A DNA stretch of 64,000 nucleotides from Streptomyces humicola (GTDB lineage Bacteria; Actinomycetota; Actinomycetes; Streptomycetales; Streptomycetaceae), in contig NZ_JANFNG010000017.1 of NCBI RefSeq assembly GCF_024436035.1, positions 1-64,000 on the forward strand, written 5' to 3'. The translations under genes and the position numbers were made by a program. The notes under the pieces are model-generated. The model was not told the origin of the DNA and did not search any database. It saw nothing but the letters and a program-made list of their open reading frames with translations. Of this stretch, positions 7,301-52,851 are shown one piece after another (within the stretch, counting starts at the first letter, position 1; every line of letters starts with the position of its first letter).

Positions 7301-9808
7301 ATGGTCGACCAGCTGTCGGCGTTCGGTGACGAGGTGACGCGGGTGGCGCGCGAGGTGGGCACCGAGGGCCGCCTGGGCGGCCAGGCCCGCGTGCCCGGCG
7401 TCTCCGGCATCTGGAAGGACCTGACCGGGTCCGTGAACCTGATGGCGAACAACCTCACCAGCCAGGTCCGCAACATCGCGCAGGTGGCCACGGCCGTGAC
7501 CCGCGGCGATCTCAACCTGAAGATCGACGTGGATGCGGCCGGCGAGATCCTGGAGCTGCAGGACTACATCAACACGATGATCGTCAAGCTCCGCGAGACC
7601 ACCATCGCCAACAAGGAGCAGGACTGGCTCAAGGGCAACCTGGCCCGCATCTCCGGCCTGATGCAGGGCCGCCGTGACCTGCACGACGTCGCCGCCCTCA
7701 TCATGAGCGAGCTGACGCCGGTGGTCGCGGCCCAGCACGGCGCGTTCTTCCTCGCGCAGGAGACCGGCGACAGCGAGACGATCGGCAGCGACGGCGGCCC
7801 GGCCCCGTACGAGCTGCGGCTGATCGGCTCCTACGGGTACTCCAGCTCCACCATGCCGACCTCGTTCCTGCCCGGTGAGTCGCTGATCGGGCAGGCCGCG
7901 GTGGAGAAGCGCACCATCCTGGTGGAGAACGTGCCGCCCGGCTACCTCAAGATCGCCTCCGGGCTCGGCGAGGCGCCGCCGGCGCACGTCATCGTGCTGC
8001 CCGTGCTGTTCGAGGACCGGATCCTCGGCGTGATCGAGCTGGCCTCGTTCCAGCCCTTCACGCAGATCCAGCGGGACTTCCTCAGCCAGATCGCGGAGAT
8101 GATCGCGACCAGCGTCAACACCATCAGCGTCAACACCAAGACCGAGAAGCTGCTTGCGCAGTCGCAGGAGCTGACTGCGCAACTGCGAGAGCGTTCGGCC
8201 GAGTTGGAGAACCGGCAGAAGGCGCTTCAGTCGTCCAACGCCGAACTGGAGGAGAAGGCGGAGCTGCTCGCCCAGCAGAACCGCGACATCGAGGTGAAGA
8301 ACACCGAGATCGAGGAGGCCCGCCAGGTCCTGGAGGAGCGTGCCGAGCAGCTCGCGGTCTCGATGCGCTACAAGTCGGAGTTCCTCGCCAACATGTCGCA
8401 CGAGCTGCGTACACCGCTCAACTCGCTACTGATCCTGGCCAAGTTGCTCGCCGACAACGCCGACGGCAACCTGTCGCCCAAGCAGGTGGAGTTCGCCGAA
8501 ACGATCCATGGTGCGGGTTCCGACCTGCTTCAGCTCATCAACGACATCCTCGACCTGTCGAAGGTCGAGGCGGGCAAGATGGACGTCAGCCCGACGCGTA
8601 TCGCACTGGTGCAGCTGGTGGACTACGTGGAGGCCACCTTCCGGCCGCTCACCGCAGAGAAGGGCCTGGACTTCTCGGTGCGGGTCTCCCCGGAGCTGCC
8701 GGTCACGCTCCACACCGACGAGCAGCGGCTGCTGCAGGTGCTGCGCAACCTGCTCTCCAACGCGGTGAAGTTCACAGACGCGGGCGCCGTCGAACTCGTC
8801 ATCCGGCCGGCCGGATCCGACATCCCGGTCGGCATCCGGGAGCAGATGTTGGAGGCCGGGGTGCTGCACGACCCCGACCAGGAGATGATCGCGTTCTCGG
8901 TCACCGACACCGGCATCGGCATCGCTGCCAGCAAGATGCGCGTGATCTTCGAGGCGTTCAAGCAGGCGGACGGCACCACGAGCCGCAAGTACGGCGGCAC
9001 CGGCCTCGGCCTGTCGATCAGCCGCGAGATCGCCCGGCTGCTCGGCGGCGAGATCCACGCCGACAGCGAGCCGGGCCGCGGCTCGACCTTCACCCTCTAC
9101 CTGCCGCTCAGCCTCGGCGACGCCCCGGCATCGCACGAGATGCCGCAACTGCCCTCGGCCGAGGAGCACACCTCGCCGGGCGAGGCGAGGGAGACCAAGG
9201 ACACCGGTCGGGCTGCACAGGAGGCCGAGGCAGGCGTGCAGGGCTCGCGCGCCCGCGTCGGCGGCCTGTCGTCCCGGCTGCGCCGCCGCGCGCTGCCGCC
9301 TGCGGAGCGCACGACGGTGCCCGGCCAGGCGGCGCAGGGGCAGCCGTCAGGGGGCGAGGCGTGGGCCGACGGTGCCGCCGGGGACGAGGCGAAGCAGGGC
9401 GACTCGGGGGCCCTGGGCGATTTCGGTGGCTTCGGTGGCGAGAAAGTGCTGATCGTCGACGACGACATCCGCAACGTCTTCGCGCTCACCAGCGTGCTGG
9501 AGCAGCACGGGCTCACGGTGCTGTACGCGGAGAACGGCCGCGAGGGGATCGAGGTGCTCGAACAGCACGACGACGTCGCGGTCGTCCTGATGGACATCAT
9601 GATGCCGGAGATGGATGGCTATGCCACGACATCGGCGATTCGCCGAATGCCTCAGTTCGCGGGACTGCCGATCATCGCGCTCACCGCGAAGGCGATGAAG
9701 GGTGACCGGGAGAAGAGCATCGAGTCCGGTGCGTCCGACTATGTCACCAAGCCTGTCGACACCGATCACCTGTTGTCCGTCATGGATCAGTGGATGCACA
9801 CACGTTGA
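4307..9808 (+). CDS. osaA: OsaA-like poly-HAMP hybrid histidine kinase
   Basis: A soluble hybrid sensor kinase of about 1,833 residues, matching OsaA of the S. coelicolor osmoadaptation system in size and layout. Residues 30-1100 form tandem HAMP units of about 92 residues, each with motifs such as GDLSQKITV and [10 protein letters not shown] count twelve GDLxxKI-type copies. Next come a GAF domain (1115-1270), a coiled coil (1275-1350), the HisKA box [10 protein letters not shown] (about 1365), a HATPase domain ([29 protein letters not shown]), and a C-terminal receiver with the phospho-acceptor in [11 protein letters not shown]. There is no membrane segment, so the signal is probably cytosolic or protein-borne. 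The GTG start follows GGAGG with a 7-nt gap. osaB follows in the same direction. Confidence 0.92.
4800..7560 (+). repeat. tandem coding repeats, period about 276 bp
   Basis: The HAMP array of osaA is encoded by ten or so direct repeats of about 276 bases that are highly similar at the DNA level, for example the recurring stretches around aacacgatggtggaccag and gaggtgacgcgggtggc. Such an array can expand or contract by recombination, so repeat number may vary between strains. Confidence 0.85.
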
Positions 9809-39611: not shown

Positions 39612-40568
39612 GTGAACACTGCTGTCCCGCATCCCCTGCACGACTCGGCCCCCGAGGTCATCGCCGTCGTCGGCCCCACAGCGGCCGGCAAGTCCGACCT
39701 GGGCACCGCCGTGGCCGCCGCCGTCGGCGGCGAGGTCGTCAACGCTGACTCGATGCAGCTCTACCGCGGCATGGACATCGGGACGGCCAAGCTCACCCCA
39801 GAAGAGCGCCGCGGCATCCCGCACCACCTGCTCGACATCTGGGACGTCACGCAGGCCGCCAGCGTCGCCGAGTACCAGCGCCTCGCGCGCGCCGAGATCG
39901 ACCGCCTGCACGCCGTGGGACGCATCCCGGTCCTGGTCGGCGGCTCCGGGCTGTACGTGCGCGCCGCGATCGACCCCCTCGACTTCCCCGGCACCGACCC
40001 CGAGGTGCGGGCACGGCTGGAGGAGGAGCTCGCGGCGCACGGCTCCGGACCGCTGCACGCACGGCTCGCGGCCGCCGACCCCGAGGCCGCCCGCTCGATC
40101 CTGCCGAGCAACGGCCGCCGCATCGTACGCGCCCTGGAGGTCGTCGAGATCACCGGGCGCCCCTTCACCGCCAACTTGCCCGGGCCGGACGCCCGGCAGT
40201 CCGTCTACACCACCGTGCAGCTCGGCGTGGACGTGTCCCGCCCCGAGCTCGACGAGCGCATCACACGGCGCGTCGACCGGATGTGGGAGGCCGGTCTCCT
40301 GGGGGAGGTGCGGGCGCTGGAGGCGGTGGGGCTGCGGGAGGGCCGGACCGCCTCCCGGGCGCTCGGCTACCAGCAGGTCCTGGCGCACTTCGCCGGTGAG
40401 TGCACCGAGGACGAGGCGCGTGCCGAGACCGTACGCGCCACCAAGCGCTTCGCGCGCCGCCAGGACTCGTGGTTCCGCCGCGATCCACGGGTGCACTGGC
40501 TCGCCGGCCACGGTGAGGAACTCGTAGAGCGGGCTCTGTCGTTGCTCGAACGACCGGTCACAGCCTGA
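39612..40568 (+). CDS. miaA: tRNA dimethylallyltransferase MiaA
   Basis: MiaA transfers a dimethylallyl group to A37 of tRNAs that read codons starting with U. The 318-residue protein has the P-loop VVGPTAAGKSDLG (about 19-31), the tRNA-contacting NADSMQLYRGMDIGTAKLT, GGSGLYVRA, and the C-terminal TKRFARRQDSWFRRD. The GTG start at 39612 is the family start. Its last seven codons (ERPVTA and stop) lie inside the 26-bp direct repeat that bounds the AICE, so the insertion leaves the protein intact. In related genomes miaA is close to dapF; here the element separates them. Confidence 0.97.
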   Translation: MNTAVPHPLHDSAPEVIAVVGPTAAGKSDLGTAVAAAVGGEVVNADSMQLYRGMDIGTAKLTPEERRGIPHHLLDIWDVTQAASVAEYQRLARAEIDRLHAVGRIPVLVGGSGLYVRAAIDPLDFPGTDPEVRARLEEELAAHGSGPLHARLAAADPEAARSILPSNGRRIVRALEVVEITGRPFTANLPGPDARQSVYTTVQLGVDVSRPELDERITRRVDRMWEAGLLGEVRALEAVGLREGRTASRALGYQQVLAHFAGECTEDEARAETVRATKRFARRQDSWFRRDPRVHWLAGHGEELVERALSLLERPVTA

Positions 40569-40571
40569 TCA
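40546..40571 (+). repeat. attL, 26-bp direct repeat overlapping miaA
   Basis: Starts tcgaacgaccggtcac and ends agcctgatca. It covers the end of the miaA coding frame including its TGA at 40566-40568. The copy at 52711-52736 is identical; flanking bases differ on both sides. Confidence 0.92.
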
Positions 40572-40595
40572 TCTGATCGCATTCCGGCAGCGAAA

Positions 40596-40663: not shown

Positions 40664-41902
40664 TCAGCCCTGTGGATCATGGCCGTCGAATACCGCGTCA
40701 ATGGCCTTACGCGTCCGCTCCTTGCTGCTGGGCATCAGGTGCGCGTACACCCGCAGCGTCATCGCCGGATCGGCATGCCCCAGGTACTCACTCACCGCTT
40801 TGATGTTCTCCCCCGCCTCCAGCAGAACGGAGGCGTAGAAGTGCCTCAGCGCGTGCATGCCATGCTCCCGTGCCGCCGCCGGGTCCTCACCCTCTTCCGG
40901 CTCCGGCAAGACCCCAGCGGCCACGAGAGCGGGCTTCCAGTAGTCCACGTTGAAGTCCTTCCGCCGGATGACCGCCCCCCGCGCCCCGGTGAAGATCAGA
41001 CTGTGCGTCACCTTTGGCCCGTCGAGAGTTTTCCATGGCAGCGTGACCTTGACGGGCTTGTACTCCTTGGTGTGCATCCGGATCGCGTCGGCCACGGTCG
41101 CGGGCATCGGCACGTCGCGTTCTTTGTCGCACTTGGGCGGCGCGAACACGGGCCTCCCCCGGATGAGCTTCACCTGTCGGACCACGTGCAGCGTCCCGGC
41201 CTCGAAGCTCAGGGCATCTTCGGCCAGGCCGAAGACCTCCCCCTGCCGTAGCCCACAACCGCCAGCCGTGTCCGTGGTGGCCTGGAAGCGCCCGGGAAGC
41301 GCGGCCCGCACCGCGAAGACGCGCTCAGGCAGCCACGGCACAACGCGCCTCGCCTCCCGGGTCGGCGGCCGGACCGACGTGGCGTTGCACGGGTTGCGGC
41401 TTAGGTAACCGTCGTCCACGGCGGCCGACAGCACGGCCCGCACGGTGCCGTAGATGTGCACGGCGTACGAGCCGGGGATCCCCTCGTCCTCCAGCTCGCG
41501 CAGCCAGCCGCGGACGTGCTCGGGCTTAAACGATCCGAGGGGGCGCGATCCGATGTACGGCAAGGCATGCAGCCGCAGGTATCGCTCCGCGCTGTCCTGC
41601 GTCGACACGTCTGTGGTCTGTGCAGCGAGCCACCTTTCCGCATATTGCCGGAAGGTGGTGCGGGCGGCGCGGGGGTCGACGTACTGCCCGCGCGTCATGT
41701 CAGCCTCGACCTGCGCCAACCACTTCTCCGCGAGGCGCTTCTGCCCGTCCGGGAAGCTCTTGGACTTCTCGGTGCCGTCAGGGCCGATGTAGCGGGCGCG
41801 GTAGCGCATGCCGGTGCCGTAGCGCTCGGTCTTGACGCGGCGGGGCTTGCCGTCGGGGCCGGTCTCGGTCTTGTACCAGCGGTCTTGGATGTGGCCTGCC
41901 AT
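40664..41902 (-). CDS. int: tyrosine site-specific integrase
   Basis: A 412-residue phage-type integrase that recombines attP with the miaA 3' end. The N-terminal part (about 60-160) is a SAM-like core-binding domain (TTFRQYAERWLAAQ). The catalytic part carries the arginine in GGCGLRQGEVFGL (about 216), a lysine in PPKCDKERDVPM, the box HALRHFYASVLLEAG (about 348), HADPAMTLRVYAH with the nucleophilic tyrosine near 386. It is the gene nearest attL, with xis next, as expected for an AICE. The ATG at 41902 (MAGHIQDRWYKTET) is the family-like start. Confidence 0.95.
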   Translation of the reverse strand: MAGHIQDRWYKTETGPDGKPRRVKTERYGTGMRYRARYIGPDGTEKSKSFPDGQKRLAEKWLAQVEADMTRGQYVDPRAARTTFRQYAERWLAAQTTDVSTQDSAERYLRLHALPYIGSRPLGSFKPEHVRGWLRELEDEGIPGSYAVHIYGTVRAVLSAAVDDGYLSRNPCNATSVRPPTREARRVVPWLPERVFAVRAALPGRFQATTDTAGGCGLRQGEVFGLAEDALSFEAGTLHVVRQVKLIRGRPVFAPPKCDKERDVPMPATVADAIRMHTKEYKPVKVTLPWKTLDGPKVTHSLIFTGARGAVIRRKDFNVDYWKPALVAAGVLPEPEEGEDPAAAREHGMHALRHFYASVLLEAGENIKAVSEYLGHADPAMTLRVYAHLMPSSKERTRKAIDAVFDGHDPQG

Positions 41903-41931
41903 ACGAGGCGTTGTCCCTTCTGGACATGAGG

Positions 41932-41960
41932 CAGGGAGGGCCACGGCGTGGCCCTCCCTG
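41932..41960 (-). terminator. 13-bp hairpin between xis and int
   Basis: cagggagggccac (41932-41944) and gtggccctccctg (41948-41960) are perfect complements with a 3-nt loop. The hairpin sits 28 bases after the xis stop and 29 bases before the int start, where it could lower int expression relative to xis or sequester the int leader. Confidence 0.75.
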
Positions 41961-41988
41961 GGGAGTTGAACTGTGCGATTGCTGACGA

Positions 41989-42228
41989 TCAGGCGGCGTC
42001 CCGGTTGGCGCTCTTGCGTTCGGTGACGTAGGTGCGCACGTCGGCGGGGTCGTAGCGGAGGTGTTTGCCGATGCGGAAGCCGGGGGGACCGGTGCGCTTC
42101 TTGCGCCACTGGTAGACGGTCTCGATGGGTACCTCGAACATCTCGGCGATGTCGTCGGGGGTGAGGTACCGGTCGGGGAGACCGCTGCGGAGGGTGGCGC
42201 GGAGGTCGGGGTCTGTCGGCGTTGCCAT
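41989..42228 (-). CDS. xis: excisionase-like helix-turn-helix protein
   Basis: A 79-residue DNA-binding protein with a MerR-like (HTH_17) winged helix: YLTPDDIAEMFEVPIETVYQ, then WRKKRTGPPGFRIGKHLRYD. Proteins of this type next to int act as excisionases (recombination directionality factors). The ATG at 42228 follows GGAG by 5 nt; an upstream ATG at 42288 is less likely. The iteron-like array begins about 50 bases upstream. Confidence 0.88.
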   Translation of the reverse strand: MATPTDPDLRATLRSGLPDRYLTPDDIAEMFEVPIETVYQWRKKRTGPPGFRIGKHLRYDPADVRTYVTERKSANRDAA

Positions 42229-42280
42229 AGGGACTCCAAGCGGGGAGGGCATGGCCGCGTCTGTCCGAGGTGCGGATTTC

Positions 42281-42485
42281 TGCGTCATTGCGTCATCAGC
42301 GTCACTTACGCGTCTGACCTGCGGTTTTGTGTGACGCAGTGGCTATGGGGTGCGTCATCGGTGCGTCACGGGTGCGTCATCGGGTGACGCAGATGACGCA
42401 GGATGACGCAGAGGCCGTCGTCTGCGTCATGCCTGTAGCCGCAGGTCAGGGGCCGTTTTTCGGCTTGCATGACGCAGATGACGCA
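42281..42485. repeat. array of twelve TGACGCA/TGCGTCA motifs (candidate origin)
   Basis: Twelve exact copies of the 7-mer TGACGCA, in both orientations, lie within 205 bases. As TGCGTCA they start at 42281, 42289, 42351, 42362, 42373 and 42423; as TGACGCA at 42332, 42385, 42394, 42404, 42470 and 42479. The centre has three copies in one orientation followed by three in the other, spaced 9-12 bases, near one helical turn. A 10-bp inverted repeat (tgacctgcgg at 42315-42324, ccgcaggtca at 42439-42448) encloses the core. The array lies between xis and the replication ATPase, so it is a candidate replication origin or a regulator-binding array. Confidence 0.85.
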
Positions 42486-42725
42486 GCGTCTTCCCTCTTA
42501 GGACAAAAGAGGGGGTGTCTGTTGTAGTTCGGTGGCGCCTCAAAGCGTGAAGAAGGAGCCGCTGCGCGGCGCGACCCTCGGCGGCGGCGTAGCCGCCGGA
42601 TGAGCAATGAGGGGCCGCTTCGCGGCGCGTTCTTTGGGCGGCGCACGGCGCCGAACAGCAAGAGGAGCACGCCAGGCCGGTGGTGCTCTTCTTGCTTGTC
42701 CGGGGCGGGGCGTGCGGATCGTGGA
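42486..42725. other. GC-rich hairpin region after the replication ATPase gene
   Basis: No coding region is supported here. The stretch has two related GC-rich segments (gccgctgcgcggcgcg near 42557 and gccgcttcgcggcgcg near 42613) and several small hairpins. With the array it makes a gap of about 500 bases between xis and the ATPase gene. Confidence 0.5.
42659..42694 (-). terminator. hairpin terminator of the replication gene pair
   Basis: caagaggagcac (42659-42670) pairs with gtgctcttcttg (42683-42694) with one mismatch and a 12-nt loop, about 31 bases downstream of the ATPase stop on the minus strand. Confidence 0.65.
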
Positions 42726-44201
42726 TCAGAACATCGGTTTGTGCTGGTGTGGGGGCGGGGTGGCCAGGCGGGTCATTTCGAGGTAGCGGCCCTCGCTGGT
42801 GCGGCCTGTGTCGATGAGGACACCACGGGCGGCCAGCGTCGGTTGGAGGCGCTTGAGCCGGTCGGAGAGGACTTTGCCGGTGGTCGGCCAGCCCTTGGGC
42901 AGGGGACGCAGCTCGTCGCCGCTGTAGAGGCGGCTGAGGCAGTGCAGCCACTCGGTGGAGGTCATCCGCTGCGCTGAGCCCGGCTCGATGGTGTCGGCGT
43001 GCCTGAGGACGGTCTGGGCGAGGAGATCGCCCTCGATCACGTCGTCGTTGAGGTCGTCCAGACTGGTCCGGTAGGCGGTGAGCGCCCCGAGGCCGGTTGC
43101 CGCATCGAGCTGCGCGCACAGGTGGGCGAAGTCCGCCATCCGCAGGTCGGTGGGGGTCTCGGCCTCCACCGCGCGGACCTTGACCGTGAGGTCCAGGAGC
43201 GAGCCGAGAACCACAGGCAGGACCTCCGCGTACTCCGCCCACAGTTCGGCCTCGGTGCGCCTCACGCGGGGCCGCTCCAGGCGCAGCGGCAGGAGCCGTT
43301 CGGCGAGGTCGGGCCGGATGACTCCCACGTCGATGCCGGTCAGGAGCAGGGGGCGGCGGTAGCGGGCGCGGAAGACGTCCCCGTCGGTGAACAGGGCGCG
43401 TTTGACGTTCTCGGCGCCGGTGACGATGCAGCACATGGCATCCGACAGGTCCGGGGTCATGTGGGAGAGGTTGTCTAGGGCGGTGACCCATCCGGCCGCG
43501 ACCGCGGCGATCAGGTTCTCTTCGTCCTTCGGGGCGCGGCGCAGGTCGCCGCTCATGCCCTCGATGATCCGCACGAGCATCCGTCCGCCGGTGGATTTGC
43601 CCGCGCCCTGCGGCCCGGTGAGGAACGGGGCGGGGACGGGAACGGACGGCCCGAGGCAGCCGACCAGCCAGGCGATGGCCAGGCATTCGGTCTCCGCGGT
43701 TGCGAAGTTGCACAGCCGCAGCAGGAGGTCGATGCCCTTGCCGTTGGTGTCCTTGGCTGGCAGGGGCAGTTCGCCGGTGAGTTGGGTGCGCCGCCAGCAG
43801 ACCTCGCGTGGGTCCGGGGTGAGCACGTCCCAGCCGGTGGGGTGGATGCGGACGGACTGCCCGTCGGTCCGGCCCAGGTCCAGCCATGTCGCCCCGTCGT
43901 ATCCGGGGGCGACGCGGATGTGGACGGGCTGTACGTCCTCGGTCAGTGCGAGTGCTTCGATCAGGTCCAGCGCTTCCTTGAGTGCGGTTCCGTTGAACAC
44001 GCCGAGCCCGTCCTTGAACAGGCCGACCATGAGTTCTTGGCGGTGGCTGCCCGTGGTGCCCTGGGAGCGGATCGGGCGGGCCACGGGGTGGCCGTTCTTC
44101 TGCGCGTATACGGTTCCGTCGGCGGTGCGGAAGTACCGGAAGTGCTCTTGCGCGTAGTCGGCGATGACCTCGCGGGCCGGGGTTTTCTCGTCCTCGGACA
44201 T
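42726..44201 (-). CDS. AICE replication ATPase/helicase-like protein
   Basis: A 491-residue P-loop protein. Walker A is FLTGPQGAGKSTGG (about 193-206), followed by a Walker B-like segment (AGWVTALDNLSHMTPDLSDAM) and an arginine-rich sensor region (RYRRPLLLTGIDVGVIRPDLAERL). It resembles the helicase part of the D5/prim-pol replication proteins. The gene begins 2 bases after the primase-polymerase stop, so the two are a split version of one replication protein. The name is not assigned; together they represent the RepPP type of AICE replication. Confidence 0.82.
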   Translation of the reverse strand: MSEDEKTPAREVIADYAQEHFRYFRTADGTVYAQKNGHPVARPIRSQGTTGSHRQELMVGLFKDGLGVFNGTALKEALDLIEALALTEDVQPVHIRVAPGYDGATWLDLGRTDGQSVRIHPTGWDVLTPDPREVCWRRTQLTGELPLPAKDTNGKGIDLLLRLCNFATAETECLAIAWLVGCLGPSVPVPAPFLTGPQGAGKSTGGRMLVRIIEGMSGDLRRAPKDEENLIAAVAAGWVTALDNLSHMTPDLSDAMCCIVTGAENVKRALFTDGDVFRARYRRPLLLTGIDVGVIRPDLAERLLPLRLERPRVRRTEAELWAEYAEVLPVVLGSLLDLTVKVRAVEAETPTDLRMADFAHLCAQLDAATGLGALTAYRTSLDDLNDDVIEGDLLAQTVLRHADTIEPGSAQRMTSTEWLHCLSRLYSGDELRPLPKGWPTTGKVLSDRLKRLQPTLAARGVLIDTGRTSEGRYLEMTRLATPPPHQHKPMF

Positions 44202-44203
44202 GG

Positions 44204-45064
44204 TCACAGTCCCAACCTGGTACGGGCGTTGGTCCACGCGTCGGTGCAGTGCCGGGGCGATTCGCCCTTGGCCTGCGCGGCGGTGAACAACCTGCTGATG
44301 TGGGCGTCGGTGAGGCAGCCGCACCGACCGTGCGTGGACAGCACGGCGAGGAACGTCCGGTAGACGGTGGCGTGGATCGCGCCGCGGGCCTGCGTGATGC
44401 GCTGCTCGGCCATGGCGATGCCACGTTCCAGGTAGGCGGGCGTGCGGTGGCGGCACTCCCCGTTCCCGGCCCATGCGGGCACGGTGGTGGCCTGCTGTGT
44501 CGGCCGGGCCGGGGTGGGCTCCTTCACGACCAGCGCGCGCACGGCGTCCGGCAGGTCGGCCAGCGTGCCGGTGCCGGGTCCGAGCCACCGTGCGTAGGAC
44601 ATCAGGGACTTCACGTCCACGCCGGGCCGGACGCGGTTGGAGGACTGCATGACGCCCTGGTAGAGCCAGTGCTCACCCCTGGTGGTGCGCACGATTCGGG
44701 TGGCGGGCAGGCTCGCGCGGGCCCATGCGATGGCTTCCGCGTTGTCGAGGTCGACGACGGTGAGGTCGGCGCCGCCGGGGTGGTAGGCCACCGTTGCCGC
44801 TTCGCGCCATGCCCGTGCCCATGTCGGCGAGTTGATGACGCTGGGGTCGGTGGTGGCAGCGGCCCATGCGTGGCAGGGCGCCGGGCAGGTGCAGGGGCCG
44901 GGGGTCTTCATGTTCGGCCGTCCCCCGCACGCATTGTCGGCGCAGTGGCGGCAGTTGCCGAACGGCATCTTCCCAGCTCGCAACGGCAGCACGGGCACGC
45001 CGGAGGCTGCCAGGGAGAGAGCGGTATGCAGGTGCTCTCCCGGAATGTCGGTCGGTTGGGTCAT
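44204..45064 (-). CDS. bifunctional DNA primase-polymerase (RepPP type)
   Basis: A 286-residue prim-pol protein. Typical features are the opening ALSLAASGVPVLPLRAGKMP, a cysteine-rich insert (CRHCADNACGG and CTCPAPCH) likely to bind zinc, the metal-binding DLD in ADLTVVDLDNAEAIAW, and GEHWLYQGVMQSSNRVRPGVD. It would prime and start replication of the excised circle. The C-terminal third is a helical domain with more cysteines. It forms an operon with the downstream ATPase. Confidence 0.9.
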   Translation of the reverse strand: MTQPTDIPGEHLHTALSLAASGVPVLPLRAGKMPFGNCRHCADNACGGRPNMKTPGPCTCPAPCHAWAAATTDPSVINSPTWARAWREAATVAYHPGGADLTVVDLDNAEAIAWARASLPATRIVRTTRGEHWLYQGVMQSSNRVRPGVDVKSLMSYARWLGPGTGTLADLPDAVRALVVKEPTPARPTQQATTVPAWAGNGECRHRTPAYLERGIAMAEQRITQARGAIHATVYRTFLAVLSTHGRCGCLTDAHISRLFTAAQAKGESPRHCTDAWTNARTRLGL

Positions 45065-45530: not shown

Positions 45531-47444
45531 TCAGGCCGCCTCCCGGCCGGGCTGGAGCATGCCGTCGTCGGTCTTGCGGAGGGCTCCCGAGCCTGTGAGG
45601 GCCTTGACCTCGCGGGAGACGGTGCCCTTGTTGATTCCGGTGCGGTCGGTGATGTCCCGCAGGGTTCGGGCGCCGTCGTGGACGGCCCGCAGGACCCGGT
45701 CCCGGTTGGTCTCCGCCGCGGCCGGTGTAGGTGCGGACGCTGTGCTGTCCGTCGGGGTGGTCGGCTGCTTGACCAGGTGGAGGGTGCTCCGGGTCGGCCG
45801 GGAGGATTCGCGTTTCCAGATGGGCCGCTCGGGGAGGGCGATGACGTCGGCGGGGGAGAAGGCGCGGGTGCTGATCGGGTGGGGCTTGGCTTTCGGCCCC
45901 GAGCGCAGCATCGCCACGCCGGGCATGGGCAGTTCGTGTGCGTGCCAGCCCTTCTCGGTGGCGTCCTCTCCGAAGACCACGCGGGACTCACCCGAGGTGG
46001 ATAGTGCGAGGGCGGCCCGGTAGGTGATCTGCGCGCTGATCTGCGGGTCGATACCGCCGTTGCGGTCCATGGTTGGCTTCTGCGTCGCCCAGATCAGGAT
46101 GATCTCGGCCGCGCGCGCCATGCGGGCCAGGGTGCGGAAGTTCTCCATGATCCGCCCGTAGCCGACGGCGTCGGTGTCCTCGTCGCCGCTGCTCTTGCCG
46201 CGGGTGCGGGACATGGAGATGACCTCCGCTCCCTCGTCCACGAAGACGGTGATGCGGGGGTGTTCGGGGCTGATCTCGATGACGTCCCGGCCGCGGGGGA
46301 CGAGCTGGAGACGGTCGTGCATCTCCTCCACCAGCTCGTCACTGACGTCCAGCACCTCATCCGGCGTGATCGCCGTGCGGGCCCGGTGCTGCCAGTTCAT
46401 CGCCTCCACCCGCTTGGGGTCGATGACGACCAGGCGGTGATCGGCGGCCTCGGAGCCTTCCGCGAGCAGGGCCCTAGTCGACCAGGACTTGCCCGAACCC
46501 GAGGTGCCCGCGACCAGCATCCGCCGCCCCAACGGGACCATGACCAGCTCGCCGGTGACGGTGTCGATGCCCCACGGCGCCCCGGGCTCCCAACCGGTCA
46601 GGTCGATGCCGTCGGCCGCGCTGCGGGTCCGCAGCGTGATCGTGGCACGATCGCCGTGACTGCCGGAGGTGATCTCCATGCGCAGGTCGGTCCGCGCCCC
46701 GAGCAGGGCCCGGACCTCGTCCGCCTTCGCGCGGAACGTCTTCGGCGTCCACCGGCCGTCCAGCCGCACGTGCGAGACCAGCCCGGCCGGGGTGAGCTTG
46801 GCCGGGGTGGGCACGGTGCCCGACAGACCGCGCGCGTCGGCGTTCTGGACCCAGAACGACGGGTCCAGCCGCAGCGCGAGGCGCCGTTCCTCCGCGGTCA
46901 TGCCGTCATCGAGCCGCACCGACGGCTGACGGCGCCCCAGCCACAGACCCGCGGCATGCAGGCCGATCAGCCCTGCGGACACAGAGGCTGGCCACAGCGT
47001 GAGCGTGTGCCCGGCCTCGGACATCAGCCACGTGGCCAGGCTGCTCGGCACGGTGTGCGCGGCGTGCGCCTGGACCGCGAGGGTCCGCAGTGTGGCGGGG
47101 TGGTTCTTCCGTGCTGCCTTCAGCCCGGCCCGTGCCTGGCTGTGGTGCTGCCGCGCGGCATTGTGCGCGGTGCGCGCGGCCCGGCGGGTCGCGGACAGCG
47201 GGTTGTTGGACGCCTTGCGGGCCGCGGAGCGCTGGTTGCGGGCCATCGCGGCGGTGGAGCGTGCGGAGTTGTGCTCCCGCTGGGCCGCCATGAGCGCTTT
47301 GAGGTTCTCCGGAGTCCGTAGCTGCGCCCGGCGCTCCGCTTCCCTGTCCCAGCGGGCCGCGAACGGTGCGCACATCGGCGCGAGCGCATCGAGCGCCGTG
47401 TTGGTTGTAGTGGTGGTGGTCGACCATGCTTGTTTCCAGTCCAC
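45531..47444 (-). CDS. FtsK/SpoIIIE-type conjugative DNA translocase (Tra)
   Basis: A 637-residue protein that moves double-stranded element DNA between mycelial cells, the single-protein transfer mode of Streptomyces plasmids. The N-terminal 200 residues are basic and helical with a membrane segment (about 145-185). The motor has Walker A LVAGTSGSGKSWSTRALL (about 310) and Walker B RITVFVDEGAEVISMS. The C-terminus (about 585-635, LRDITDRTGINKGTVSREVKAL) is a winged helix suited to reading 8-bp clt repeats. The GTG start follows GGAGG by 8 nt; the frame is open to a TTG 15 bases earlier. Confidence 0.92.
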   Translation of the reverse strand: MDWKQAWSTTTTTTNTALDALAPMCAPFAARWDREAERRAQLRTPENLKALMAAQREHNSARSTAAMARNQRSAARKASNNPLSATRRAARTAHNAARQHHSQARAGLKAARKNHPATLRTLAVQAHAAHTVPSSLATWLMSEAGHTLTLWPASVSAGLIGLHAAGLWLGRRQPSVRLDDGMTAEERRLALRLDPSFWVQNADARGLSGTVPTPAKLTPAGLVSHVRLDGRWTPKTFRAKADEVRALLGARTDLRMEITSGSHGDRATITLRTRSAADGIDLTGWEPGAPWGIDTVTGELVMVPLGRRMLVAGTSGSGKSWSTRALLAEGSEAADHRLVVIDPKRVEAMNWQHRARTAITPDEVLDVSDELVEEMHDRLQLVPRGRDVIEISPEHPRITVFVDEGAEVISMSRTRGKSSGDEDTDAVGYGRIMENFRTLARMARAAEIILIWATQKPTMDRNGGIDPQISAQITYRAALALSTSGESRVVFGEDATEKGWHAHELPMPGVAMLRSGPKAKPHPISTRAFSPADVIALPERPIWKRESSRPTRSTLHLVKQPTTPTDSTASAPTPAAAETNRDRVLRAVHDGARTLRDITDRTGINKGTVSREVKALTGSGALRKTDDGMLQPGREAA

Positions 47445-47811
47445 GAAAGGGTCCTCCAAGACCGTGGATGAGGGCCGGTGCGCCGTTGCGTGGCGTCACC
47501 GGCCCGTCCGATTTGCGGTGGTTGGTGCTGTCGGTTGCGTCGACAGTGCCGGTTGATCCCCGCAACCTGCGTTTGACCTGCGCAGTTGCAGGGTTGCGCT
47601 GTTCCTGGGGGTGGGGCCCTACGCGCACGCGCGCGAGAGAGGACGGAAAACGCCGTCACACAGCGTCTTTGTGGGGCCATGGACGGCCGTTCACGGGCCC
47701 GGGGGTCTCCACCCCCATGGAAGGGGGTTCGGTCGCTCTACGGGCCGCCTGCGGGCTCCACCCCGCCCGGGACGGTGAACGGCCGTAGGCGGGGCGGTGG
47801 TTGAGGGTCTG
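47445..47811. other. intergenic region upstream of tra, candidate transfer locus
   Basis: These 367 bases have no supported gene. They include an alternating purine-pyrimidine run (cgcacgcgcgcg, near 47628) and a 12-bp inverted repeat, acggccgttcac (47683-47694) and gtgaacggccgt (47775-47786), separated by 80 bases. Streptomyces transfer loci (clt) lie next to the tra gene, so this is the natural place for one. I did not find the 8-bp direct repeats of known clt loci. Confidence 0.5.
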
Positions 47812-50245: not shown

Positions 50246-50444
50246 AGTCAAGCTGGTTCGCCGACTTGAGTGGTGGTCACCCCTCGCGGTGCACTTCAAG
50301 GAGACCTCCCGGAAGGGGGGTCGCGGCAGCCAACAAGCCCTCATAAACGGCTAGTTAGGGTTGGTGTTAACCCCTTTTGACCTGCGGCGATGTAAGGCAC
50401 CATGGGTTGGTAGCGATCGGACCCAACGCCGAACGGGGTGCCCA

Positions 50445-51581
50445 GTGAGCGCAGAATCAGGACTACGAACCGCGCGGACGGCGCGCGGCTGGTCGCAGGA
50501 GCGCCTCATCCGCGAGATCGAGCAGCACGCCCGACGGAACCTCACCGACGTTGCCTCAACCGCGAGCCTGCGGGTGTACGTGTCCGAGTGGGAGAACGGA
50601 CGGCGCCCGATCTCGGACCGCTATGCAGCGATCCTGCGCAACCTCCTCGGCGTCACTGACGCCGAACTGAGGGGGGCCACCCGGAAGTCGGCGCTCCCAG
50701 TGGCCGACGGCTACGACGACTTGCTGAGCCGGATCGATTCCGCCAGCAGCGTCAGCGTGTCCATGGTGAAGACTTTCAACGATCAGACGGAACTACTGCG
50801 CACCATGGACCGGCAGATGGGTGCCGCGAGTCTCGTCGACCAGATGACGGGTCACCTCACCGCTCTTGAGGATGCGCTGAACTTCGCCGTGTTGCCCGCC
50901 GCGCGCCGCCCCATCGCGCTCGCCCTCGCTGGGGCGTCCACCCTCGCCGCGTGGCAGGCGATCGATTCTGGGGCGGTCGAACGTGCCTGGCGACACTATG
51001 AGTTGGCGAAGCGAGCCGCACGCGACGCGGAAGCACCGATGTACCTTGCCCACGCCATGGGCGAACAGGCGTACGTGCTCTGTGACGCCGGTCGGCCTGC
51101 GCTCGCCGTCGACTTGGTGCGCGACGCTCAGAGTAGCCTCGGCCAGTCGGGCTCCCCCCGACTCCGGGCATGGCTGCACGCAGCAGAAGCGGAGGTGTGC
51201 GCGCACGCTGGGATGGTGGACGACTCCAAACGTGCGCTGGATGCGGCCATGGACGCGATTCCGCCGGGCCTCGAAGACCGGGACCCGGACATGCTCAGCA
51301 TCTTTCTGAACGGGTCCCACCTCGCCCGGTGGCGCGGCAACGTTCTCGGCCTACTCGGCGAGGACGAAGCCGTAACCAGCCTCTACGGTGCCCTCGAAAT
51401 GATGGACCCGACATTCGTGCGGGCACGGGCGGGAGTCCACACGGATCTGGCCCAAGCGCACCTTGCCCGTACCGAGTACGACGACGCGAACACCCATCTC
51501 CGACAGGCCCGGCTGTTGGCAAGCCGCACCGGTTCGGTGCGGCAGCGACGTCGCGTCGACCTGCTTAGTGAGCGGCTGTGA
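50445..51581 (+). CDS. XRE-family regulator with TPR-like domain
   Basis: A 378-residue regulator. The N-terminal helix-turn-helix (about 8-75, TARTARGWSQERLIREIEQ, with an insert, and YVSEWENGRRPISDRYAAIL) precedes a long helical region with TPR-like repeats (about 150-375). The only plus-strand gene of the element's core, it is divergent from the transfer operon and carries two palindromic operators upstream. By position it may be the activator of replication and transfer genes, like Pra in pSAM2, though sequence similarity is not shown. The GTG start at 50445 has only a weak ribosome site. Confidence 0.85.
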   Translation: MSAESGLRTARTARGWSQERLIREIEQHARRNLTDVASTASLRVYVSEWENGRRPISDRYAAILRNLLGVTDAELRGATRKSALPVADGYDDLLSRIDSASSVSVSMVKTFNDQTELLRTMDRQMGAASLVDQMTGHLTALEDALNFAVLPAARRPIALALAGASTLAAWQAIDSGAVERAWRHYELAKRAARDAEAPMYLAHAMGEQAYVLCDAGRPALAVDLVRDAQSSLGQSGSPRLRAWLHAAEAEVCAHAGMVDDSKRALDAAMDAIPPGLEDRDPDMLSIFLNGSHLARWRGNVLGLLGEDEAVTSLYGALEMMDPTFVRARAGVHTDLAQAHLARTEYDDANTHLRQARLLASRTGSVRQRRRVDLLSERL

Positions 51582-52353
51582 CGCCCTGCTTGCCCCGGGT
51601 CGCCAGGATGTGAAGCAGCGCGACCAGGGTTCCGGAACCGAGCAGCTCACCCCGGGCCAAGAGTCCCGGAATGTCGGTGAGGGGTACCCACTCGATGTGT
51701 CCAGCCTCTTCCAGGTCGGTCGGCTCACCGACCTTCTCGGCGCCGTGGGCTACGAAGATGTCGTGCGGCGAGTCCACCATGCCGACCATGGGTTGGTAGG
51801 TGACGAGGTGCTCAACGCGATTCGGGCGCCACCCCGTCTCCTCCACGACTTCCCGCAGCGCGGTTTCCGCCGGCGCCTCCCCCTCGTCGACGATGCCGCC
51901 GGGCAACTCCCACCCGAACCGCTGAGGCACGAACCGGTACCGCCACATCATGAGTACGCGGTCCTGGTCGTCGATAACGGCCGTGACGGCGACGTGGTGA
52001 AGTTTCACGACGTGGTGTTCGAACCGCTTCACACCAGGCGGTTCGACGTCCCACAGTTGCAGCTTGACCCATCGGTTGTCGTAGAGGTCGCGCTCACCGT
52101 GGATGCGCCACGGCTCCAACCCTCCGGGCGCCTTGACGCTCACCGCACCCGGGACCCTGTACGAACTCCGGCCCCGGACTTCCAGGGCGCCCTCCGTCAC
52201 GAGACGGGCAAGAACCTGGCGGAGAGCCGTCCGGCCGATCTCCAGTTCCTCGGTCAGGGTGCGTTCAGAAGGAAACTTCTCGCCCGGGGCATACGCGCCC
52301 TTGGCGAGCCGTTCACGAAGCGTCTCGTAGACCTTGGTCGTCTTCGGTCCCAT
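51565..52353 (-). CDS. GntR-Nudix fusion protein, probable AICE repressor
   Basis: A 262-residue fusion. Residues 1-75 are a GntR winged helix (TKVYETLRERLAKGAYAPGE, FPSERTLTEELEIGRTALRQ, VLARLVTEGALEVRG). Residues 95-250 are a Nudix hydrolase domain with a complete Nudix box, G-x5-E-x7-REVVEETGW, in GGIVDEGEAPAETALREVVE. In pSAM2 the two roles are separate proteins, the GntR repressor KorSA and the Nudix immunity factor Pif; here they are one chain. The gene is convergent with the XRE gene, overlapping by 17 bases. Start at ATG 52353 (GGGGAG 10 nt upstream) or at ATG 52371. A near copy of the 14-bp palindrome lies just upstream, suggesting self-repression. Confidence 0.9.
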   Translation of the reverse strand: MGPKTTKVYETLRERLAKGAYAPGEKFPSERTLTEELEIGRTALRQVLARLVTEGALEVRGRSSYRVPGAVSVKAPGGLEPWRIHGERDLYDNRWVKLQLWDVEPPGVKRFEHHVVKLHHVAVTAVIDDQDRVLMMWRYRFVPQRFGWELPGGIVDEGEAPAETALREVVEETGWRPNRVEHLVTYQPMVGMVDSPHDIFVAHGAEKVGEPTDLEEAGHIEWVPLTDIPGLLARGELLGSGTLVALLHILATRGKQGVTAAH

Positions 52354-52377
52354 CCGCGGAGCACTCCCCATTGTGAG

Positions 52378-52391
52378 GTGGTGCGTACCAG
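52378..52391. promoter_or_regulatory. third operator copy at the GntR-Nudix gene
   Basis: GTGGTGCGTACCAG matches the palindrome of 50208-50245 at 12 of 14 positions. A minus-strand TACGCT hexamer (52395-52390), usable as a -10, overlaps its edge, so the transcript would begin inside the operator. Confidence 0.75.
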
Positions 52392-52710
52392 CGTAGCGGG
52401 GAACAGGCATGCTACCTCCGGGTCGTATACCGGGCGATTTTCAAGATCAAGACGAGATGTGGACGGGGAAGATGTGGACGGGGAAGGCGAGCGCTCGACC
52501 GACAGGGCGGCGCAGGCTCGTAGGCGCTGTAGCGCGCCCCGGGTACCGACGGCCCTTCTCGCGGGCCGGTGCATCCTGAACTGCGGAAATGCAGACACCT
52601 CCGGGCCGTCTGTGGGCCGTGCGAGGCTGGCCAATGACGACCAACAACGACGGGTAACGACCGTGCCGGGACTCTCGCGGGGCACGTCAGCGCCTTTTTC
52701 CCCTCATCCG
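52392..52710. other. right end of the AICE, non-coding
   Basis: I see no gene here. Two perfect 15-bp tandem copies of agatgtggacgggga lie at 52455-52469 and 52470-52484. Several acgacc/aacgac words occur at 52636-52662. Repeats near attR may be integrase arm sites; this is unproven. Confidence 0.5.
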
Positions 52711-52736
52711 TCGAACGACCGGTCACAGCCTGATCA
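52711..52736 (+). repeat. attR, 26-bp direct repeat
   Basis: Identical to 40546-40571. The bases to the right (cgtgatggcc) are chromosomal, and those to the left (ccctcatccg) belong to the element. Confidence 0.92.
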
Positions 52737-52851
52737 CGTGATGGCCACGGGACGCCTCGGCGGGGGCTGACGGCCCTTCCGACATGCCATCATCGATCGT
52801 CGGGCCGGGGAGGCTCGTGATTTCCGGACCAGGGTGGGAGGGCGCGTGGCA

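Follow-up and report, generated by a model that had tools for sequence, protein, structure and literature searches.

Classical iteron origins of the RepE/Rep_3 type have several short and phased binding sites for the initiator next to the rep gene, and this initiator contains winged helices. As far as the published text was available to us, rep/iteron loci with Rep binding have been described for the Streptomyces plasmids pFP1, pFP11, and pWTY27 (PMC3583192). The repAB/iteron locus of pWTY27 contains two rep genes, including a predicted primase/polymerase, and a required iteron region of 300 bp; RepA binds this region, whose repeats lie on both strands within inverted repeats (PMC3583192). In SLP1 of Streptomyces coelicolor, the Prim-Pol gene SCO4617 is followed by SCO4618 ("RepPP"), and this region is described as important for SLP1 replication; a SCO4618-like gene was found in 16 of 40 Prim-Pol AICEs, and the words "iteron" and "oriV" have no match in the available text of that AICE survey (PMC3218068). 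Vectors have been derived from both pFP11 and SLP1 (PMC3212956), and four further papers served as context only (PMC9513070, PMC8584621, PMC5862659, PMC9195940). Thus rep/iteron replicons of Streptomyces such as pFP11 are already known; in the literature searched, as far as its text was available, we found neither a described origin for Prim-Pol/RepPP AICEs nor a description of the family-wide pattern of Rep and array reported below.

The locus compared here with these systems is an array of TGACGCA words beside a rep gene, in a 64-kb window (the whole stretch of DNA that was analysed) of Streptomyces humicola. As in the window, pFP11 (NC_006911) has a Prim-Pol gene, then a relative of the Rep ATPase (36% identical), which we infer to be the published iteron-binding Rep, and then an array on the 3' side, whose word GGGACGCAC shares the core GACGCA with the word of the window. 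Unlike the window element, pFP11 is a free plasmid with ParA and a MobF relaxase, and its array, which is not clearly dyadic, lies 600 to 850 bases from the end of the Rep match, behind a small YozE-family gene. pWTY27 resembles the window in organisation, with two rep genes that include a predicted primase/polymerase and an iteron region on both strands, and has a different word (GTGGGAAC/TTCCCAC). SLP1 has the same kind of Prim-Pol/SCO4618-type gene pair as the window element. The classical RepE/Rep_3 origins differ from the window in two respects: the Rep of the window is a P-loop ATPase, and its sites are mirror-symmetric, not all direct. In addition, a locus of S. violaceoruber (L052) codes for a Rep that is 93% identical and has 10 copies of the word, with a tRNA-Tyr gene 2.3 kb beyond rep and no match to the int or xis of the window. 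SLP1 uses tRNA-Tyr.

Host element and gene content

The array belongs to an element of 12.2 kb with the 3' end of miaA on one side and dapF on the other (profile matches to PF01715 and PF01678, respectively). Its proposed att repeats, both on the plus strand, are 35 nt long and 91% identical, with the first 26 nt the same; the left one lies at the 3' end of miaA (40546..40580) and the right one (52711..52745) is followed by dapF. The integration site is thus part of a protein-coding gene and not of a tRNA gene, and ARAGORN found no tRNA gene in the 64-kb window.

The genes that follow are all on the minus strand. int (40664..41902) codes for a tyrosine recombinase (PF00589, 53.6 bits, cut-off 27.1), and next to it is a xis-like gene with an HTH_17 profile match (41989..42228), 79 aa from the ATG at 42228; a longer xis ORF from 42288 would start within the array, whereas in relatives the array is already passed where the matches start. 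On the other side of the array, rep (42726..44201, 491 aa) codes for a P-loop ATPase (Walker A GPQGAGKS) with a predicted C-terminal winged helix at about residues 386 to 478. Directly upstream of rep lies the gene of the primase-polymerase, Prim-Pol (44204..45064, 286 aa; PF09250, 34.8 bits, cut-off 22.8), and past it tra, an FtsK/SpoIIIE-type translocase gene (45531..47459; PF01580, 36 bits, cut-off 24). The array is thus flanked by the xis-like gene and the 3' end of rep, in agreement with the first-pass annotation, which had placed it between xis and the replication genes; int lies past xis and tra past Prim-Pol. Judging from gene content, the element is an AICE (actinomycete integrative and conjugative element), since Int, Rep/Prim-Pol, and an FtsK-type Tra are found between att repeats, and by gene order rep appears to be SCO4618/RepPP-like.

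Two further genes inside the element code for an NsdA-family regulator (50361-51581) and for a GntR-like/Nudix-like fusion protein (51565-52410), the latter with matches under the cut-offs and perhaps involved in a KorSA/Pra-type control. The genome of the window (G000) has seven Prim-Pol matches on seven contigs, one of them the present element, so that several Prim-Pol replicons may share this host; the array itself has a single match in the host assembly. An Rfam search of the window returned a 5S rRNA at 92-208 only, no DnaA-box-like site was found near the array, and a scan of 41900-42800 gave no sigma-70 promoter near xis. Phage records had no match to the array, and viral contigs had one matching locus only (L209).

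A mirror-symmetric array of phased sites

Exact word counting gave 12 copies of TGACGCA within the 205 bases of 42281..42485, the iteron array and proposed origin, six on the plus strand (starts at 42332, 42385, 42394, 42404, 42470, and 42479) and six on the minus strand (42281, 42289, 42351, 42362, 42373, and 42423), so that the copy number and the two orientations reported from the first reading are exact. The whole window contains 26 copies, these 12 among them, where 10.9 would be expected by chance; the expectation for 205 bases is therefore about 0.035, which bears out the earlier estimate of far less than one. When the most frequent 7-mer in any 205-base window was counted (non-overlapping, with at least three different letters), the array reached 12, the rest of the window 5, and 100 dinucleotide shuffles 3 to 5. 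Non-overlapping counting was used instead of overlapping counts, with which low-complexity words raised the shuffle maxima to 6 to 11.

From left to right the starts are spaced by 8, 43, 19, 11, 11, 12, 9, 10, 19, 47, and 9 bases, in the strand order −−+−−−+++−++. The symmetric 3+3 core with a spacing of about one helical turn, also proposed before, is found at 42351-42410 (−−−+++), and among ten periods tried the phase coherence of the sites is highest at 10.5 bp (0.70); at this period the mean over 80 named relatives (the best 80 of 346) is 0.58, and random positions give 0.28. The inverted repeat said to enclose the array exists as well, with its arms on the plus strand at 42314..42324 (CTGACCTGCGG) and 42439..42449 (CCGCAGGTCAG) in an inverted-repeat search, but it is 11 bp long, not 10, and encloses 8 of the 12 copies, leaving two outside each arm.

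The whole array is a dyad centred near 42383, in which 12 of 12 sites are mirror-paired. Its dyad score was matched by none of 200 position shuffles and by 7 of 200 strand shuffles. Another array, that of L118, with the different word GGTGACGCAC, is also mirror-paired at 12 of 12 sites (0 of 200 position and 4 of 200 strand shuffles), and over the 80 named loci (best 80 of 346) dyad symmetry averages 0.78 versus 0.54. The mirror-pairing test gave no clear symmetry for pFP11, pFP12, and several other motif classes.

Conservation of the array and its flanks

Across 83 aligned relatives, identity to the window is 95.0% in the motif columns and 69.6% in the spacer columns, in stretches that were chosen by motif density and are thus biased toward the motif columns. 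Counting the window, the sites at 42281, 42351, and 42423 are exact in 82 to 83 of 84 sequences, whereas 42362 is exact in only 33/84 (with the core GACGC kept in 54/84) and 42289 in only 40/84 (core kept in 78/84). Conservation in the 83 relatives extends to the inverted repeat, the outer TGACCT of the left arm being 90 to 100% conserved (its inner four bases, 65 to 81%) and the outer AGGTCA of the right arm 86 to 99%.

The left flank TGTCCGAGGTGCGGATTTC (42262..42280) is conserved, at a level of at least 92% in 14 of its 19 columns, and by column conservation the right flank is partly so (CTTAGGA-AAA...GGGG, 42486..42528, with a terminator-like hairpin at 42491-42515). Because the outer halves of the inverted repeat and much of both flanks are conserved, the origin probably spans about 42255-42530. 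In 60-base windows, examined for a melting region (DUE), the GC content falls to 0.55 at both array edges (42270-42329 and 42450-42509) from 0.62 to 0.78 outside, a dip without a clear AT tract.

The array accompanies rep

All of the 80 named Rep relatives (88 to 95% identical; the best 80 of 346) have 4 to 14 copies of TGACGCA on the 3' side of rep, always within 0.6 kb of it, with a mode of 11 copies and a span of about 200 to 211 bases in most loci, and all have a Prim-Pol match beside Rep. The first-pass annotation had suggested looking for the same array at the same place in related elements, and there it is. At the level of genomes, a close Rep was found in 117 of 394 members of the family, 115 of them with an array match; among the 277 genomes with no close Rep, 5 had an array match (Fisher p of about 1e-90, with relatedness ignored). 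The two close-Rep genomes with no array match are G207, which on inspection has 8 copies, and G088. As to the extra matches, those of G130 and G346 are of 34 to 42 bases only, the array of G337 is accompanied by Prim-Pol and by no more of Rep than its last 52 residues, and arrays without a window-type Rep occur in G166 (two loci) and G292. The array is also found on three circular plasmids that code for Prim-Pol, Rep (69 to 71% identical), and ParA; on each of them, 10 exact copies separate rep from parA. These plasmids have no match to the Int or Xis of the window.

Damaged relatives were also seen. At L131 (6352-7607) an internal deletion has left Prim-Pol and the array with the last 52 residues of Rep, and in L134 (8121-9546) and L135 (5729-7110) of G213 each Rep matches in two frames with different breaks, indicating apparent frameshifts.

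Turnover of the motif with Rep

More distant Reps are accompanied by repeats too, mostly of other words. A clustered repeat beyond that of shuffles (20 or 60 per locus) was found on the 3' side of rep in 31 of 34 cases, that is, 23 of 25 from genomes (Rep 34 to 45% identical) and 8 of 9 from plasmids (36 to 62%); L119, L145, and L150 had no array beyond shuffles, and 3 of the 25 genome loci also had a significant cluster on the opposite side of rep. The words include GGGACGC, GGACGCT, GCGGACG, TGACGCT, and GGGTGCT. The repeats thus accompany Rep and change with it, with the exceptions of L119, L145, and L150 and of L129, L130, and L132, described below.

Little could be learned from the overall structure of Rep, since the full-length model is poor (pLDDT 42.7). 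The C-terminus has a predicted winged-helix fold (H-E-H-H-E-E; model pLDDT 82), for which a fold search returned generic matches only (Z below 7; best Foldseek E 0.037, CtsR); RepE of F is in the list at Z 5.5, which is not discriminating, and a sequence search of the PDB gave no match. Membership in the SF3/VapE/D5-like helicases was not accepted, the matches being low-scoring (12.7 bits for VapE-like PF05272, under the cut-off of 25). In 41 of 41 aligned Reps the P-loop is kept, and the recognition helix and wing vary.

In partial Mantel tests on 37 of these 41 loci (L119, L145, L150, and L152 have no clear array and were omitted), motif distance was correlated with distance in the winged helix once the ATPase core was controlled for (partial r 0.21, p 0.001) and not with the N-terminal part of Rep (partial r 0.06, p 0.22). 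When the winged helix was controlled for, the core still had a partial r of 0.11 (p 0.033), so common descent was not fully removed and accounts for part of the signal. It is this result that favours Rep over Prim-Pol as the binder; the comparison otherwise hardly separates the two proteins, because Prim-Pol lies beside Rep in all 80 named loci. In the pFP12 group, with the word GGGGGACGCA, the recognition helix does not differ from that of the window and the wing is longer, and the word keeps GACGCA, preceded by GGGG; a link between the differences in wing and word is suggestive only.

Function of the array

Multiple short phased repeats in non-coding DNA beside rep are what is found at an iteron origin. 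We consider that the array very probably represents the iterons in the replication origin (oriV) of an AICE of the Prim-Pol/RepPP type, because it accompanies the replication genes, its word changing with them, and not the genes for integration or transfer. The comparison of relatives thereby lends good support to the iteron-type origin for a primase-polymerase element proposed in the first-pass annotation.

In the mechanism that we propose, Int and Xis would excise the element as a circle, and the Rep ATPase would bind the TGACGCA sites on one face of the DNA, in keeping with the 10.5-bp phasing, probably through its modelled C-terminal winged helix. Rep would then multimerise on the two mirror-image half-arrays and melt the AT-richer array edges, the adjacent Prim-Pol would make primers, and a host polymerase would copy the circle, probably in theta mode. 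As the array is directly upstream of xis, bound Rep may also tune xis-int transcription or copy number. A more detailed version, tentative and on balance improbable, is that two Rep ATPase rings are loaded head to head, one on each six-site half of the mirror array, for bidirectional replication, as at the origins of small eukaryotic viruses, with the element's own Prim-Pol as primase; that Rep lineages alter the word through small changes in recognition helix and wing but leave the array where it is; and that L129 and L130 are satellites replicated in trans by a helper AICE.

Among the other explanations, the one that survives best, although we think it quite unlikely, is that the array is an operator only, through which Rep, Prim-Pol, or a regulator of the element represses xis-int and rep, while the origin is at another place, such as within rep. 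The array does fill the region upstream of xis, and in pSAM2, according to the survey text available, int, xis, and repSA belong to a single regulated operon (PMC3218068). However, the array is kept on free plasmids, in which it is followed by parA instead of xis, and in our judgement twelve phased dyad sites are many for an operator.

A binding array for Xis (or Int/Xis), as part of an excision or attP-type structure, had been the second suggestion of the first reading. The array is just upstream of xis, Xis is an HTH_17 protein, and two loci without rep (L129 and L130) have int, xis, and the array. Nevertheless, among the 78 named loci long enough to be judged (from the best 80 of 346), 26 have a xis that reaches 55% identity and 52 have no xis of that similarity, with a mean of 10.2 copies of TGACGCA in both groups, and the mean was again 10.2 where int was at least 50% identical, less similar, or undetected (26 loci each). 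Seen from the side of int and xis, the array is missing from 40 of the 42 relatives examined that have no window-type Rep. These 42 come from the 51 best int matches, of which 40 were fetched for this comparison, the omitted ones being the window, five beside a close Rep by coordinates (G074, G391, G280, G256, and G353), and three near contig ends; the other two of the 42 are L130, whose array adjoins int and xis, and L132, which has an array as well. The 40 fetched relatives (int 65 to 85% and xis 54 to 80% identical; L189 and L195 shortened by contig ends) have at most one TGACGCA per 215 bases. Since, moreover, the att repeats are located elsewhere and free plasmids with no match to the int or xis of the window carry the array, which follows rep and not xis/int, we rejected this explanation as very unlikely. 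A second word, GGTGTCA, was seen upstream of xis in related elements (9 per 220 bases, around base 792 in L176), and a few copies occur in L129 near 7601-7630.

The two loci without rep are from the same genome, G166, which has no Rep match at 1e-20, and neither has a match to rep, Prim-Pol, or the Tra of the window. L130 (5284-12882) is an element of 7.5 kb between 70-nt repeats (89% identical), inserted at the start of a radical-SAM gene (PF04055) that reads like rlmN, and contains int, xis, a 7-copy array, an HTH_17 gene, a GntR regulator, and a deformylase-domain protein. L129 (5341-9266), with an int 55% identical, xis, and a TGACGCA array, was picked up by searching with the array and is not one of the 51 best int matches. 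Both share a 2-kb module (84% identical) that includes the array, and their integrases differ; they may be AICE satellites or decayed elements. The array of L132 (8143-8345), about 4 kb from its own rep of a different type, is possibly the remnant of another AICE at the same site.

Equally hard to sustain is a role as clt, the transfer locus that acts in cis and to which the FtsK-type Tra would bind. The clt loci of Streptomyces plasmids contain short repeats, and the clt direct repeats of pJV1 are reportedly, by its title, the subject of one study. Against this, among the 69 loci (from the best 80 of 346) with at least 5 kb upstream of rep, 48 have no match to the Tra of the window and 17 have one under 35%, with the same array, although a tra beyond the DNA compared would be missed, and in 80 of 80 named loci (best 80 of 346) the array stays within 0.6 kb 3' of rep. 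We conclude that the array is probably not tied to tra, and clt was rejected, given that the array stays at rep without a window-type Tra. A parS-like partition centromere bound by a ParA/ParB system, which a ParA gene after the array on six free plasmids might suggest, was also rejected as barely credible, since no ParA family was found among ten scanned window proteins (a subset of the element ORFs) and the array is present anyway.

Implications for Prim-Pol/RepPP elements

Prim-Pol/RepPP AICEs are common in the Streptomyces family, where a close Rep is found in 117 of 394 genomes. If the array is part of their replication origin, this origin would be placed within about 280 bases, and the array would be a signature for finding and typing such replicons and would predict which elements are compatible. 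The locus would also provide a minimal replicon for vectors, and the relatives a natural series of Rep-motif pairs with which to test how an initiator changes its DNA word. Should the tentative version with paired Rep rings hold as well, the changes in recognition helix and wing would be a readable code of origin specificity.
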